From: Caulobacteraceae bacterium
GTDB lineage: Bacteria > Pseudomonadota > Alphaproteobacteria > Caulobacterales > Aquidulcibacteraceae
Direction: 5' to 3'
NCBI GenBank assembly: GCA_009773335.1
Contig: WRPF01000016.1
Location: 1 to 51,587, forward strand
Length of the DNA stretch: 51,587 nt
In this document: in pieces, positions 21,037-29,692 of the stretch
How positions within the stretch are numbered: the first letter of the stretch is position 1
How the letters are laid out: each line of letters begins with the position of its first letter
Position numbers and translations under genes: made by a program
Notes under the pieces: model-generated
What the model was told of the DNA's origin: nothing
What the model saw: the letters and a program-made list of their open reading frames with translations, nothing else
The model's database searches: none

Positions 21037-22098
21037 ATGAACCGGAAAGAGCGCTTCGCCGCGCTGGAGCAGATCGCCGCCGAACGCATCGTCATTCTCG
21101 ACGGCGCGTGGGGCACGATGATCCAGACGTATGATCTGACGGAGGCCGATTTCCGCGGGACGCATTTCCCGGAGCACAACCGGCCGCTGAAGGGCAACAA
21201 CGATCTCCTCGTGCTGACGCGGCCCGACATCATCCGCGACATCCACGACCAGTATCTCGACGCCGGCGCCGACATCGCCTCGACGAACACGTTTTCGGGC
21301 ACGACCATCGCGCAGGCGGACTATGCGCTGGAACACGTGGTCGACGACATCAACATCGCCGCCGCTCGCATCGCGCGCGAGGCCTGCGATGCGGCGACCG
21401 CGAAGGACGGCCGCGTGCGCTGCGTCGCCGGCGCCATCGGGCCGACCAACAAGACGCTCTCGCTCTCGCCGGACGTGAACGATCCCGCGCGCCGTGATGT
21501 CACTTTTGAAGAAGTGGCCGACGCGTACAAGCAGCAGGCGCGGGGGCTCGTGGAAGGCGGCGCCGACATCATCCTCATCGAGACGATCTTCGACACGCTC
21601 AACGCCAAGGCCGCGATCTTTGGCGTCGAGGAATTCTACGACGAACTCGGCGAGCGCCTGCCGATCATGATATCCGGCACCATCACCGATCTCTCCGGGC
21701 GCACGCTGTCGGGGCAGACGGTGGAGGCGTTCTGGCATTCCGTGCGCCACGCCAATCCGTGGAGCGTGGGGCTCAACTGCGCGCTGGGCCCGAAGGACAT
21801 GGACGCCCACATCCGCTCGCTCGCGCGCGCGGCGAACGTGCGCGTCAGCGCCTACCCGAACGCGGGGCTCCCGAACGCCATGGGCGGCTACGACGAAGGC
21901 CCCCACGACATGGTGCGCATCATGGAGCCGTGGGCGGCGGGCGGCGTCGTCAATCTCGTCGGCGGCTGCTGCGGCACGACCCCCGCGCACATCCGCGCCA
22001 TCGCCGACGCAGTGAAGGGCAAGAGCCCGCGCAAGACGTGGACCTGCGAGCCGGTGATGCGGCTGAGCGGGCTCGAACCGTTTACGGCAGCGGCGTAG
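21037..22098 (+). CDS. metH: Methionine synthase, homocysteine-binding half
   Basis: This 353-residue N-terminal module of cobalamin-dependent methionine synthase activates homocysteine on zinc. It opens with ERIVILDGAWGTMIQTYDLTE and contains DIASTNTFSGTTIAQADY, ETIFDTLNAKAA and the three zinc cysteines (VGLNCALGP and GGCCGTTP). It ends after the first domain, so the enzyme is split in two polypeptides, as in several Caulobacterales and other alphaproteobacteria. Here the second half does not follow directly: an unrelated gene starts 9 bp after the stop. Confidence 0.95.
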   Translation: MNRKERFAALEQIAAERIVILDGAWGTMIQTYDLTEADFRGTHFPEHNRPLKGNNDLLVLTRPDIIRDIHDQYLDAGADIASTNTFSGTTIAQADYALEHVVDDINIAAARIAREACDAATAKDGRVRCVAGAIGPTNKTLSLSPDVNDPARRDVTFEEVADAYKQQARGLVEGGADIILIETIFDTLNAKAAIFGVEEFYDELGERLPIMISGTITDLSGRTLSGQTVEAFWHSVRHANPWSVGLNCALGPKDMDAHIRSLARAANVRVSAYPNAGLPNAMGGYDEGPHDMVRIMEPWAAGGVVNLVGGCCGTTPAHIRAIADAVKGKSPRKTWTCEPVMRLSGLEPFTAAA

Positions 22099-22107
22099 GA
22101 GGCTGGA

Positions 22108-22793
22108 ATGGCGAGTGGGATTTTTTCGAGTGCCGCCGATCTGGCCACAGCAGCAGGTGTCATGATTGGTGCGGTTTCTCTTGTTGCTGGTGTGGCGAAT
22201 GCGAGAGCCCAGCAGCATTTTCTTCGTTTGGAGCGCGAAGCAGCCGCGTTGGGGGTAATGAATTCGCGGTTTCAAGATGTCGCGGAGATTCGTCGCCAAC
22301 TGACTGCGAGATCGAGTGATCTGGATGGGGTTTCCGGAGAAGAAGTGTATTCGTTTTATGCAAAATACTGGGCGCTACAGATAGATCAGTGGGAGCACTA
22401 TCGGCTCGGAGTCATATCGAAGTCCGTGTACGTCACTTGGCTTTGCTACCTCTACGATTCTTTGAGTGGATTTCATACCATTGGCTCTATGGACTCACGA
22501 ACCTCATGGGAAGCGATTGGCCGATCGTTGTCGCGCAATAGTGTTGAATTTCGGTGCTTGGTTGAGCAACTCTACATTCTCAATCGTCAAAATCCCCTGC
22601 CTGACACCGAAGGGAGTGTATTCACGGGTCGCCCTGGGCGAAATCGCGGCTGCATTTCCAAGAGCGGACTGACGCAAGAGCTTCAGGAGCGATTGGGGCT
22701 TAGATCCAGCATCAATGAGATATTGGCGAGAACGCCAATGTGGGTGGTGAGTGGGCGGTTGCCCGCCGACCTAGCGCGCGCGATTTCCATTCA

Positions 22794-22797
<4 letters not shown>
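22108..22797 (+). CDS. Uncharacterised membrane-anchored protein inserted between metH halves
   Basis: This 229-residue protein has one N-terminal membrane helix (about 8-30; [20 protein letters not shown]) and a soluble helical part ([52 protein letters not shown]). Single-span proteins with a YYWALQ/WELYR-type segment exist as uncharacterised families, but I assign none. Its codons are clearly less GC-rich than those of both metH genes, suggesting recent arrival. It begins 9 bp after metH1 and its stop overlaps the metH2 start by ATGA, so translation of metH2 is now coupled to it. Confidence 0.75.
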
Positions 22798-25430
<2,633 letters not shown>

Positions 25431-25504: not shown

Positions 25505-26062
25505 ATGTCCGATTCCGCCCGCTCCTCCGGCCGTCCCTCCGGTCGCGCTTCGGCGACGCTGGCCCTCGCGGCTGTTCTGGTCGCCGCGTGCTCGACGGTG
25601 GCCTCGCCCGTCGGCCCCTATCCCGTCAGCCGCGCGCCCTCCTACCCGGGCGGGCCGTTCGAGGCCGGCCCGCGCTTCCTGTCTGCGCCGCCGTCGCAGT
25701 GCGTTCCCTTCGCGCGCGAAATTTCCGGGATCGCGATCCGCGGCGACGCCAACACCTGGTGGACGCAGGCGGAGGGCCGCTATGAGCGCGCCGGAACGCC
25801 GGCGGTGGGCTCGGTCATCGTGATCCGCACCTATGGCGACGGCTCGCGCGGCCATGTCGCGGTGGTGACCCGTATCGTCTCGGACCGGGTGATTCTCGTC
25901 GATCACGCGAACTGGCACGGAAGAGGCGAAGTCGCGGTGGCGGTTCCCGTCAGGGATGTTTCTGAAGACCACAATTGGTCGCAAGTTAATGTCTGGTGGC
26001 TCGACACGAATAGGTGGGGATCCAGAGATTATACAGTCGAAGGCTTCATCCGCCCCCGTTAA
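25505..26062 (+). CDS. CHAP-domain lipoprotein (peptidoglycan hydrolase-like)
   Basis: This 185-residue protein has a lipobox (LVAACS, Cys about 36) and a CHAP domain: the catalytic Cys in SQCVPFAREISG (about 66) and the His in GSRGHVAVVTRI (about 120), followed by VILVDHANWHGRGEV. CHAP enzymes cleave peptide bonds in peptidoglycan. It is a close paralog of the next gene, with the same spacing of Cys, TWW, GHVAVV and DHANW motifs, so the pair arose by tandem duplication. Confidence 0.88.
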   Translation: MSDSARSSGRPSGRASATLALAAVLVAACSTVASPVGPYPVSRAPSYPGGPFEAGPRFLSAPPSQCVPFAREISGIAIRGDANTWWTQAEGRYERAGTPAVGSVIVIRTYGDGSRGHVAVVTRIVSDRVILVDHANWHGRGEVAVAVPVRDVSEDHNWSQVNVWWLDTNRWGSRDYTVEGFIRPR

Positions 26063-26088: not shown

Positions 26089-26219
26089 CACTAGGGCACT
26101 TTATAGGCTCGACGCTTGCATGTGTCCTCGTGTGGAGAAACCGCAGAGGGCCGAAAGCAGGCCAGATCCACGTAGGCCCTGACGGCAGAACGCCGGCTGG
26201 TCGCAACGGAGGCGGAGCG

Positions 26220-26882
26220 TTGATCGAGACGAGAGCTTTCCCGCGCTGGAGCGCGTCCGTGCGGACTCTGGTCCGTCTGTCGGCCGCAGTCGGCGCCACG
26301 GCTGCGCTTGCCGCAAGCCCGGCGTACGCGGGCGATATCGACGGTGCGCCGGTCGAGGAGACCGCCACGCTCACGGGCGCGCCGCTGATGGCCGCGCTCG
26401 CCCCTGCAGAAGCCGTCGCCCAGGAAGCAACCCCCATCGACGCCCCGGCGGTGCACAGGCTCAGCGCCCGCCTGCAGTGCGTCCCTTACGCCCGCGACGA
26501 GAGCGGCGTCGAAATTCGCGGCAATGCCTCCACGTGGTGGGCGCAGGCGCGCGGCATGTATGTGCGCGCCCGCAAGCCGGACTCCGGCAACGTCATGGTC
26601 ATGCGCGGCTACCGCAATCCGGGCCGCGGCCACGTGGCGGTGGTCCGTCAGGTGCTGTCGGAGCGTTCCATCATCGTCGACCACGCCAACTGGCTGAACA
26701 GCGGCGAGGTCACCCTCAACGTGCCGATCGTCGACGTCTCGCCCCGCAACGACTGGACGCAGGTCCGTGTCTGGCACATCCCGACCCAGTCCTGGGGCGT
26801 GCGGGTCTACAACGTGCAGGGGTTCATCGTCCCGCAGCCGCTCGGCGCGCAGGGCGGCGCTGTCAGCCATATCGCCCGTTAG
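26220..26882 (+). CDS. Exported CHAP-domain protein (paralog of the preceding gene)
   Basis: From a TTG start with a strong GGAGGCGGAG upstream, the 220-residue protein has a signal peptide (LVRLSAAVGATAALAASPAYA) and a CHAP domain with the nucleophile in LQCVPYARDESG and the His in GRGHVAVVRQVL, then IIVDHANWLNSGEV and NDWTQVRVWHIPTQSWG. A GTG at 26130 would add 30 basic residues and has no ribosome site. Roughly half of its CHAP residues are identical to those of the 25505 gene. Unlike that one it has no lipobox, so it should be soluble in the periplasm. Confidence 0.85.
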   Translation: MIETRAFPRWSASVRTLVRLSAAVGATAALAASPAYAGDIDGAPVEETATLTGAPLMAALAPAEAVAQEATPIDAPAVHRLSARLQCVPYARDESGVEIRGNASTWWAQARGMYVRARKPDSGNVMVMRGYRNPGRGHVAVVRQVLSERSIIVDHANWLNSGEVTLNVPIVDVSPRNDWTQVRVWHIPTQSWGVRVYNVQGFIVPQPLGAQGGAVSHIAR

Positions 26883-26982: not shown

Positions 26983-27960
26983 ATGACTCCCGAGCAACCC
27001 CATAATTTCGCAGGCGAAACAGCCGGGGCCGCAGCGCCGAACGACGCCCCGCGCGCGCGCGTCGGGCGGTTCGTCCATTCCGAGGGATTCCGGAACGCCA
27101 TCCTCGCAGTGATCGTGGTCAACGCGATCCTCCTGGGGATCAACACCGACCACGGCTTTCACGATCGCTACGGCCGCCTCATGGCCCAGTTCGACCTCGC
27201 CGTGACGGCTATTTTCGTCTGCGAGATCTCGATGAAGCTCTACGCGGACCGCCTGAAGTTTTTCAGGGACGGCTGGAACGTCTTCGACTTCCTGATCGTG
27301 TTCGCCTCGGTGCTGACCATAGGCTCCACGGGCGTGGCGGTGCTGCGGGTGTTCCGCGTGCTGCGTGTGGTGCGTGTGTTGCGCGTGTTCCGCCTCTTCA
27401 GCGTCGTCAAGGAACTACGCCGCGTCGTGGAGGCCTTCCTCAACGCCATTCCGGGCATGAGCGCGATCATCGCGGTGTTGCTGCTGATGTTCTACGTCTC
27501 GGCGGTCATCACCACGGACCTCTTCGGCCGCGAGCAGCCGGAGCTGTTCGGCTCGATCGGCGCGTCGTTCTTCACGCTCTTTCAGGTGATGACGGGAGAC
27601 GGGTGGTCGGAAATCGTGCGTCTGCTGGACGGCAATTTCCCCTGGGCGTGGCTCTTCTTCGTGCCGTTCATCACGCTGACCAGCTTCGCGGTGCTGAACA
27701 TGTTCATCGCGGTGATCGTGGATTCCCTGCAGCGCGAACAGGTGCGCGCCATCGAGACCGCGAGCGCCGATCTCAGGGCCGGCATGACCGAAGTCAGGGA
27801 AACGCTGGAAGGCGAAATTGGCGACGTCTCCGCGGACGTGCAGGAGATCGAGGACGCGGAGGTGATCGCTGCGCGCGAACGCGCCGAGATCATGGCGTCG
27901 ATCGCCGCGCTCCGCGAGGAGCTGCGCGAGATGCGCGCGGGGATGGCGAAGCGGGAGTAG
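26983..27960 (+). CDS. Voltage-gated ion channel (NaChBac-like fold)
   Basis: This 325-residue protein has six membrane helices: S1 NAILAVIVVNAILLGIN, S2 AQFDLAVTAIFVCEISMKLY, S3 WNVFDFLIVFASVLTIG, an S4 with five or more regularly spaced arginines (VLRVFRVLRVVRVLRVFRLF), and S5-S6 around the pore. The filter reads T204-G-D-G-W-S-E210, where NaChBac has TLESWAS. The extra acidic residue and glycines resemble calcium-channel repeats, so selectivity is uncertain. After S6 a long coiled coil (about 255-320) should form a four-helix bundle, as in bacterial sodium channels. Confidence 0.9.
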   Translation: MTPEQPHNFAGETAGAAAPNDAPRARVGRFVHSEGFRNAILAVIVVNAILLGINTDHGFHDRYGRLMAQFDLAVTAIFVCEISMKLYADRLKFFRDGWNVFDFLIVFASVLTIGSTGVAVLRVFRVLRVVRVLRVFRLFSVVKELRRVVEAFLNAIPGMSAIIAVLLLMFYVSAVITTDLFGREQPELFGSIGASFFTLFQVMTGDGWSEIVRLLDGNFPWAWLFFVPFITLTSFAVLNMFIAVIVDSLQREQVRAIETASADLRAGMTEVRETLEGEIGDVSADVQEIEDAEVIAARERAEIMASIAALREELREMRAGMAKRE

Positions 27961-28126
27961 GGGGTAGGCTTTCAGCCCGGGCGCCGGACGAAGACATTCA
28001 CGGCTTGTGTCGTGAAGGTTTCCGGTGCGGGTACGGATCGCGACTTGTGTTTCGATCGCGAGCGACCGCCGGTTCATGATCGACCGGGCAATCGTTGTGA
28101 GCTAGCTTCGGCCCGTGGAGGCCTTC

Positions 28127-28783
28127 ATGAAACGACGTGACCTGATCTTCGGTGCTGTGGCTGCGGGAGCGGGGGGCGTCGCAGGTTTTGCGCACGCTGC
28201 GCAAAGCGTGAAATGCGTGATCGTTGGCGATCCCTTGGTCGGCAAGACATGGGCGCTCTCGTCTTTCGCGCAACGCTCCACCCCGGCCACTTACGTTCCG
28301 ACGGTCATCAGCGCACCCTATACCGTTCAGGTCACGCTTGTTGGGCAACCTCTCCAGGTGAGCCTCCAGGACACGTCCGGGGACGAGGGATATTCGACCC
28401 TTCGCCCCCTCGTATATCCACAGACGGACATATTCATCGCTGCTTATGCGATCGATTCCATGAGCAGCATGGACAATGTGACGGTGAAGTGGGTGCCGGA
28501 GATCAGATTCCACAATCCCGATGCGCGGATCGTGTTGGCGGGGCTGAAGTCCGACCTTCGCGCCGGCATGTCATCCAACCCCGTCCCCAGAGAGGCCGCG
28601 AAGGATGTTTCGGAGCGCCTCGCCCTGCAAGCCTACCGAGAGTGCTCAGCAACGACCCGGATCGGCCTCGACGATCTGTTCGCTACCGCGCTCGGCGTCG
28701 CAGTAGGACGGGCCTCAACCCCGTTGGGCAGCCTTCAGCGGACGCCGATCGGCCGTCGGCCCATGCGACGGCCTGGCAACTAG
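28127..28783 (+). CDS. Rho/Cdc42-like small GTPase with a twin-arginine signal peptide
   Basis: This 218-residue protein begins MKRRDLIFGAVAAGAGGVAG, a twin-arginine (R3-R4) hydrophobic signal ending in AHA-AQ. A Rho-family G domain follows: P-loop G34-D-P-L-V-G-K-T41 (Cdc42 GDGAVGKT), switch I YVPTV with Thr59, switch II D82-T-S-G-D-E87 (Cdc42 DTAGQE), then STLRPLVYPQTDIF, VKWVPEI, a G4-like LKSD143 and G5 C173-S-A. The positions of Gly12 and Gln61 carry Pro36 and Asp86, so GTP hydrolysis may be weak or lost. The Rho insert is shortened and there is no CAAX box. The ATG at 28127 has GTGGAGG upstream. Similarity to eukaryotic Rho is unmistakable; origin by transfer and an export-linked role are inference. 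Confidence 0.88.
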   Translation: MKRRDLIFGAVAAGAGGVAGFAHAAQSVKCVIVGDPLVGKTWALSSFAQRSTPATYVPTVISAPYTVQVTLVGQPLQVSLQDTSGDEGYSTLRPLVYPQTDIFIAAYAIDSMSSMDNVTVKWVPEIRFHNPDARIVLAGLKSDLRAGMSSNPVPREAAKDVSERLALQAYRECSATTRIGLDDLFATALGVAVGRASTPLGSLQRTPIGRRPMRRPGN

Positions 28784-29179: not shown

Positions 29180-29692
29180 GTGCTAGTGATCGTTTCCAGG
29201 CTCGATATCGGAGCGGCGGATCGCAAGTGGATCGAGGGTATCAGGCGCGACCACGATCCACAGCGCGCCATCATCGATGCACACTTCACGCACGTATTCC
29301 CGTTCGCTTTTAGCTCCACCGCCGAGGTTATCTCACACGCTGCGACGATTGCTGCCTCGACTGACGTGGTCACCTTTCAGCTCTCAAAGGCAGCTGCGGT
29401 GCGCGACGCGACGGCTCCGAGAAGTCTTGTCTTTCTCCTGCCGACCGAAGGAGAGCTGGAAATCCGTCGCCTCCATGATCGGCTCTATTCAGGAGTTCTT
29501 GCGCCGATGCTGCGCGCGGACATCCCTTTCGTTTCTCACGTAACCGTGGCGGCGTTCGATCGTAACGACGAGGCCGAACGGATGGCCAGAGAATTGGAGC
29601 CATTCAATACCCAGGGGAAACTGACTGCGATGGATTTGTTGGAGTTCGACGGTGCCACCGTCACGGAACTACATCGCTTCCAGTTCCGGTGA
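29180..29692 (+). CDS. 2H phosphoesterase (2'-5' RNA ligase-like) family protein
   Basis: This 170-residue protein has the two HxT/S motifs of the 2H fold: H-F-T in DAHFTHVFPF (about residue 35) and H-V-T in VSHVTVAAF (about residue 119), separated by the expected 80 or so residues. These enzymes hydrolyse or ligate 2'-5' or cyclic phosphate bonds in RNA or nucleotides. It starts with GTG, and an in-frame GTG two codons later is possible. It is the neighbour of the Rho-like GTPase, and both lie in what looks like a small accessory insertion. Confidence 0.75.
   Translation: MLVIVSRLDIGAADRKWIEGIRRDHDPQRAIIDAHFTHVFPFAFSSTAEVISHAATIAASTDVVTFQLSKAAAVRDATAPRSLVFLLPTEGELEIRRLHDRLYSGVLAPMLRADIPFVSHVTVAAFDRNDEAERMARELEPFNTQGKLTAMDLLEFDGATVTELHRFQFR

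Follow-up and report, generated by a model that had tools for sequence, protein, structure and literature searches.

Contig WRPF01000016.1 of a Caulobacteraceae bacterium (assembly GCA_009773335.1, lineage Aquidulcibacteraceae; positions 1 to 51,587 of the forward strand, 51,587 nucleotides, here called the window) carries a gene for a small GTPase of the Rho/Rac kind that begins with a predicted signal peptide of the twin-arginine translocation (Tat) type. Judging from the sequences, the gene belongs to a family present in 13 genomes of the window's order, the window genome counted, and 11 relatives retain the surface with which Rac meets its partners. We tentatively propose that a Rac gene was captured and that its product is exported folded by the Tat system, with nucleotide bound, to meet eukaryotic Rac partners. 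This is a possible reading that we place a little under an even chance. The gene and its parts, all on the + strand, are as follows.

28117..28121, +: Shine-Dalgarno-like GGAGG, 5 bases before the ATG of MKRR, seen in the sequence
28127..28783, +: Tat-leadered Rac-like GTPase gene, 218 amino acids plus stop (open reading frame, motifs, Pfam Ras, family)
28127..28198, +: predicted Tat signal peptide MKRRDLIF...AHA, residues 1-24, with probable cleavage after AHA (own pattern)
28211..28690, +: Ras/Rho G domain, residues 29-188 (Pfam Ras, AlphaFold 2 model, Foldseek to RhoA/Rac1/Cdc42)
28226..28249, +: G1, P-loop GDPLVGKT, Pro at the Gly12 position
28292..28306, +: G2/switch I, YVPTV, Thr35 kept and the rest of switch I diverged
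28370..28384, +: G3, DTSGD, Asp at the Gln61 position
28544..28555, +: G4, LKSD, Leu at the Rac Thr115 position
28640..28654, +: G5, ECSAT, motif in the sequence
28703..28780, +: basic C-terminal tail with 6 K/R and 0 D/E, no cysteine and no CAAX box

Gene, product and family

Residues 29-188 of the window protein match Pfam Ras with an expectation value (E) of 4.5e-30 and 104.8 bits against a cut-off of 21.6, and this is the sole Pfam Ras match in its genome at E up to 0.001. The best 60 of its 691 matches among solved structures are to RhoU, Cdc42, Rac1, and Rac3 (E 3e-37 to 6e-34). In the AlphaFold model, block means of the predicted local distance difference test (pLDDT) lie between 61 and 94 in the G domain and residues 1-22 and 209-218 fall below 50, and a Foldseek search with the model returned RhoA, Rac1, and Cdc42 (best E 4.8e-18; template modelling score, TM-score, about 0.69 of the query). 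Two things support the start at 28127, a GGAGG ahead of it and the fact that the relatives begin at the same twin-arginine motif; a GGAG lies just upstream of 11 of the 12 distinct family genes listed, window included. The open reading frame (ORF) and every motif quoted in the first-pass annotation, which was made from the letters alone, were found in the sequence, and alignment to Rac agrees with its placing of Pro and Asp at the Gly12 and Gln61 positions. It was also right that the protein lacks a CAAX box, the window tail having no cysteine.

The family is thinly spread through the order, which we infer to be Caulobacterales. A protein search matched 2 of 61 close relatives and 12 of 398 genomes of the order, the window genome being counted in both. 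An alignment search matched 11 of 137 genomes of family f4, 1 of 62 in family f5, and 1 of 60 in the window's own family, the last being the window genome itself; its two genus mates do not have the gene. Each carrier genome has one match. One member, apparently that of genome G434, lies on public contig L004 of Robiginitomaculum NORP55 (Robiginitomaculaceae), a family that PMC11556061 places in Caulobacterales. Beyond the order, 6 of 385 genomes in a sample of the class were matched, and except for the window these were weak matches (E 3e-8 or weaker) to other GTPases. A sample of the phylum gave matches in 30 of 398 genomes, and apart from the window the Rac-like ones were confined to G877 and G977 (E 1e-83 to 1e-86), the remaining matches being at E 1e-10 or weaker, with sequences inspected where loci were given. 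In the class of G877, 13 of 78 genomes were matched, all but these two at E 3e-10 or weaker.

No relatives of the window protein were found in viral contigs, phages, or plasmids, none of the L009 protein in plasmids or phages, and none of family alignment A3 in viral contigs, and a viral, phage, or plasmid carrier was rejected on these searches. Giant-virus GTPases match the fold at only 11%–24% identity in the 50 rows listed. Eukaryotic contamination was rejected because the window neighbours with Pfam matches, on which this judgement was made, look bacterial, because ribosome-binding sites are present, and because the gene recurs in 13 genomes.

Kinship and origin

Identities were computed over 167 columns. 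The 11 relatives share 60%–69% identity with Rac1, 56%–65% with Cdc42, 48%–53% with RhoA, and 30%–34% with HRas, and at most 23%–29% with any of the rows that we label Rup-like from their motifs. The L009 protein matches human RAC3 at E 5e-74. The window copy shares 41% with Rac1, 45% with Cdc42, and 24% with the best Rup-like row. The first-pass annotation had described a Rho/Cdc42-like protein; the Rho kinship stands, and Cdc42 gives way to Rac as the nearest of the eukaryotic proteins compared with the family.

Trees were built from 32 rows, in which the eukaryotic rows are taken from solved structures and represent human-type animal proteins plus a single plant, and the bacterial comparison is with Rup-like rows, MglA not being included. 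The broken copy of G199 was left out of alignments A1-A3, the trees, and the residue counts, and the G110 copy (L007) was used in the trees and residue counts and not in A1-A3. A Rho clade uniting six eukaryotic Rho rows with 14 bacterial Rac rows stands apart from Ras and Rup-like proteins with support of 100/98. The members with a Tat leader form a clade at 97/90, a value that is the same when long rows are removed and becomes 97/92 in a Rho-only tree, and all bacterial Rac proteins form one clade at 90/96 (65/96 without long rows, 53/95 in the Rho-only tree). Grouping the window copy with the 11 Rup-like rows was rejected by the approximately unbiased (AU) test (p 0.0049), as was grouping all bacterial rows together (p 0.0084); placing the leaderless Rac-like rows with Rac1/Rac3 was narrowly not rejected (AU p 0.054).

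It is well supported that the family lies in or beside eukaryotic Rho, apart from bacterial Rup-like GTPases. A survey of 1,611 prokaryotic genomes (PMC4316618), in the passage used here, gives MglA and Rup as prokaryotic families; they resemble the present proteins in being small GTPases in bacteria, and the Rup-like rows differ in their low identity and separate position in the tree. The suggestion that the window protein is an ordinary Rup-like GTPase with a chance resemblance to Rho and an unrelated N-terminus can scarcely be entertained. Rup-like proteins in the phylum do match the family model, though no more strongly than E 1e-10, which is weak evidence for it; the identities, the tree, and the AU tests refute it for these rows. 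The outcome that the first-pass annotation had held to be contrary to its reading, a tree grouping the protein with ordinary bacterial GTPases, was not seen for the Rup-like rows.

Capture of a Rac gene from a eukaryote is favoured but not proven by these comparisons. It is the simplest reading because identity is higher to Rac than to other Rho proteins and because the distribution is patchy, and to this extent the first-pass idea of a captured eukaryotic gene is strengthened. The best tree sets the bacterial Rac proteins beside Rac1/Rac3 with support of only 42/6, and an arrangement in which all six eukaryotic Rho rows form one clade with bacterial Rac outside was not rejected (p-AU 0.236, and 0.275 once the long rows are removed). 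There may have been one capture or two. That the arrangement with a single eukaryotic Rho clade is not rejected speaks for the reading that the proteins are bacterial relatives that were never captured and that branch off outside the eukaryotic Rho family or at its root, and bacterial roots for the Rho family have been argued (PMC2651865, in the passage used). We consider such an origin very unlikely: the best tree puts the bacterial rows beside Rac, identity is 60%–73% to Rac1 as compared with 48%–56% to RhoA and 49%–62% to plant Rac, and the distribution is very patchy.

The two leaderless Rac-like proteins, from G977 (L045 1010-1627) and G877 (L046 1474-2088), belong to another class of the phylum. 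They are likewise bacterial, share 71%–73% identity with Rac1, and have no CAAX box, but differ from the family in having a full-length insert and no signal peptide by our own pattern, and in ending right after helix 5.

Leader and predicted export

Every one of the 13 members in the order opens with M-[KQR]-R-R, after which come a short stretch of low charge and an A-x-A-type site; in G320 (L014 1339-2100) about 27 extra residues, many of them Pro and Arg, stand between leader and G domain. The twin-arginine signal peptide proposed in the first-pass annotation is therefore a property of the order's family, and homologs that all lack the leader and start inside the G domain were not what was found. 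The leader is a trait of the order's clade and not of all bacterial Rac proteins, because the two Rac-like proteins of another class are without it. Our own pattern for Tat leaders (twin-arginine n-region, uncharged h-region, A-x-A-type site) was drawn up after the family had been seen; it recognised 12 of 12 intact members, neither leaderless Rac row, none of the Rup-like rows (11 in all), and a single one of 204 other neighbourhood ORFs. This last background is crude, as the pattern misses some leaders that look Tat-like by eye, among them two ORFs of L040, and as the starts chosen by the simple ORF caller are often too far upstream. The NCBIfam model TAT_signal_seq matched 2 of 13 rows (best E 0.035). 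TatC, the Tat component searched for, is present in 13 of 13 carrier genomes. Over the 30 leader codons the ratio of nonsynonymous to synonymous substitution rates (dN/dS) is 0.08-0.18 in three close pairs.

It is possible to arrange these observations in a sequence of events. A Rac gene, most likely from a eukaryote, would have gained a twin-arginine signal peptide in Caulobacterales. The protein would be made in the cytoplasm and would fold around guanosine diphosphate (GDP) or guanosine triphosphate (GTP) with magnesium, which is suggested because the nucleotide motifs are kept. It would then leave through the Tat translocase in its folded state, since one can hardly picture a small GTPase being threaded unfolded and then loaded again outside, and would be cut at the A-x-A site.

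Alternatively, the leader may remain uncut and hold the protein to the inner membrane in place of the lost prenyl group, in which case the G domain would stay in the cytoplasm. None of the 12 members examined has a CAAX box, and the two leaderless Rac-like proteins of another class carry no export signal, both of which fit such a tether. However, twin arginines in every member together with A-x-A-type sites exceed what an anchor needs, and the leader has the weak hydrophobicity and the many glycines typical of Tat signals. We regard the tether as improbable.

Selection and partner face

All five motifs of a Ras-type G domain, G1-G5, are present in the family. The P-loop Lys-Thr, Asp57, Gly60, Lys116, Asp118, Ser158, and Ala159 are kept in 12 of 12 members, Thr35 in 11, Trp56 in 10, Gly12 in nine, and Gln61 in six. 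G-domain dN/dS is approximately 0.11-0.28 in five pairs, which points to purifying selection.

Conservation relative to Rac1 appears to be concentrated on one side of the protein. At 37 partner-face sites off the nucleotide, mean identity to Rac1 among the 11 relatives is 86% (76%–95%), and at 75 sites on the back it is 49% (41%–54%), the two site lists having been chosen after identity by stretch was seen. The corresponding face and back values are 78% and 59% for plant ROP, 81% and 64% for Cdc42, 62% and 55% for RhoA, 59% and 57% for RhoU, and 22% and 26% for HRas. Switch I and switch II of the relatives are on average 90% and 94% identical to those of Rac1, as compared with 40% and 70% in the window copy. 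The face has been conserved more strictly than that of plant ROP, with more drift on the back, and continued contact with Rac partners is therefore favoured.

In comparison with eukaryotic Rac (Rac1/Rac3), the family is alike in G1-G5, in the switches of the relatives, in Trp56, and in the overall identity of 11 members, but differs in the Tat leader, the absent CAAX box, an insert 5-9 residues shorter, a bulky residue at the Thr115 position, and a basic tail. The Rho-insert stretch between G4 and G5 has 21-25 residues in all 12 members, as against 30 in Rac1, Rac3, Cdc42, RhoA, RhoU, and the leaderless rows and 28 in plant Rac; because of this short insert we file the family as Rac-related and not as canonical Rac. 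The Thr115 position holds Tyr, Leu, Phe, or Met in 12 of 12 members, and every tail has 6-11 K/R and 0-6 D/E, with neither cysteine nor a CAAX box. Changes at the matching Ras position, Asn116, speed nucleotide release, and this general background may bear on the Thr115 position here.

The first-pass annotation had also suggested, from the Gly12 and Gln61 positions, that hydrolysis might be poor. Pro at position 12 is found in the window copy only among the 12 aligned members; as far as the alignment goes, the suggestion would draw on positions that differ between family members, read in the copy whose Rac face is mostly lost.

Possible functions

Once outside the inner membrane, the protein would present its Rac partner face, and the basic tail could take the place of a prenyl anchor. 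The targets would most likely be Rac-binding proteins in eukaryotic grazers or hosts of these bacteria. Among the roles offered in the first-pass annotation, namely secreted mimic, nucleotide carrier, and structural protein, we favour the mimic with modest confidence. Searches of the 13 genomes gave no match to RhoGAP or RhoGEF, and no neighbour recurs at more than 3 of 13 loci, both of which count for contact with eukaryotic partners. The nearest precedent is in Legionella, in which 184 genes are predicted to encode eukaryotic-like small GTPases (PMC11323580; see also PMC9757750). In the passages of PMC11323580 and PMC7542358 used here, these Rab-like and other proteins resemble the present family in occurring in bacteria and in being thought to act on a host; they differ in belonging to host-adapted pathogens with an injection system, and Tat leaders are not mentioned there, a distinction drawn from description and not from sequence comparison.

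It is also possible that the exported Rac serves the bacterium itself in the periplasm or outer membrane. The protein would leave the cytoplasm loaded with nucleotide that cannot be replaced, and would act as a one-shot timer or as a fixed scaffold read by a bacterial partner. One match per carrier genome and a G domain under purifying selection suit such a role; the clade-wide bulky residue at Thr115, the short insert, and the loss of Gln61 in 6 of 12 members fit a protein that does not cycle, and the basic tail could hold to the envelope. However, no neighbour or partner gene is common to more than 3 of 13 loci, and it is not obvious why a new bacterial partner should preserve the Rac face at 86% identity. 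We judge this role to be the less likely of the two, at roughly one chance in three, yet close in probability to the proposal of a mimic.

The broader idea that embraces both, of a GTPase working outside the cytoplasm, comes nearest to an even prospect while staying below it: a Rac exported by Tat with its nucleotide would act once, without recharging, as a mimic for eukaryotes or as a one-shot switch in the envelope, and the changes at Thr115 and Gln61 might tune how long it stays loaded.

A number of observations weigh against export of a captured Rac toward eukaryotic partners. No way for the protein to pass the outer membrane or enter a eukaryotic cell came to light, no search for secretion systems having been made, and such a crossing would have to be supposed. 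The Pfam TAT_signal model matches 7 of 13 aligned rows, those listed being below its cut-off (best 21.6 against 22.7 bits, the cut-off being a detection threshold and not a biological requirement), and it does not match the window copy. Leader dN/dS reaches 0.38-0.50 in two other pairs. Cysteines average 1.8 per G domain, as compared with 4-5 in leaderless Rac; the Rup-like rows have 1-5, hence the low count is not distinctive, and cysteine depletion was dropped as proof of an oxidising compartment. The searches for RhoGAP and RhoGEF had no match in any control genome. To these may be added the low support for the position beside Rac1/Rac3, the AU result for a eukaryotic Rho clade, and the late choice of face and back sites. 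Finally, the copy in G199 (L005 1464-2166, - strand) is interrupted by a single in-frame stop midway through the G domain, its leader being intact, and the window copy has only 43% face and 31% back identity to Rac1.

These last two copies could also be taken to mean that Rac DNA is spreading and being lost among these bacteria without a function that can be named. The patchy occurrence (12 carriers among 398 genomes in the order and one among 60 in the window's own family), the broken copy, and the long branch of the window copy agree with decay of this kind, but purifying selection on the G domain and a leader in 13 of 13 members do not, and we hold an accidental gene to be an outside chance.

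Because GTP and the regulators of small GTPases are found within cells, these proteins are regarded as intracellular switches. If the proposed export is correct, the family would be the first sign, as far as our literature search shows, of a small GTPase selected to leave the cytoplasm; among the matches listed in published literature, mostly without subscription journals, there was no Tat-exported small GTPase and no Rac in these bacteria. It would let one ask, in a natural setting, whether a switch loaded with nucleotide can act without being recharged and whether Tat can carry folded proteins with nucleotide bound, and would add to the known exchange of signalling genes between eukaryotes and bacteria not recognised as intracellular pathogens.

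The window copy

The window copy is an atypical member. Its branch is long (1.47 changes per column), and it groups with f4/g29 members at 97/92 (77/49 in the Rho-only tree). GC content at third codon positions (GC3) is 0.72, the third lowest of 16 surrounding genes and like the 0.65-0.74 of four g29 genes. Against the L008 gene, G-domain dN/dS is approximately 0.33 with dS of 1.6. It is probably a fast-evolving member that arrived by a later transfer within the order, and, being mostly without the Rac face, it may be changing or losing that function. The window copy has diverged from its relatives, and the first-pass annotation therefore met the least typical member of the family.

Neighbouring genes

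Across the 13 neighbourhoods (216 ORFs), the GTPase itself was the only cluster found in more than three loci (11 of 13), a count affected by the simple ORF caller, which mis-picked the GTPase in L033 and the window, and by several neighbourhoods that end at contig ends. A conserved operon or partner gene was rejected on this basis.

In the window, an ion-channel gene lies directly upstream (26983-27960; Pfam Ion_trans E 1.7e-45), preceded by two adjoining CHAP-domain proteins (25505-26062 and 26130-26882) that are probably a duplication. Methionine synthase is apparently split in two genes, the second named by eye (21037-22098, 22108-22797, 22740-25430), and a 229-residue ORF between its parts has a GC3 of 0.54 and no Pfam match. 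Just downstream of the GTPase gene is a 2'-5' RNA ligase-like gene (29180-29692) with a GC3 of 0.66, which may have come with it. Elsewhere in the family, related proteins, most starting with MILRR, occur a few kilobases from the GTPase gene (L032 11761-15166, L033 16428-16799, L034 13988-15417), in tandem in two of the three genomes, and related ORFs that look transposase-like by eye lie near it at L041 5903-6598 and L040 15068-15397.
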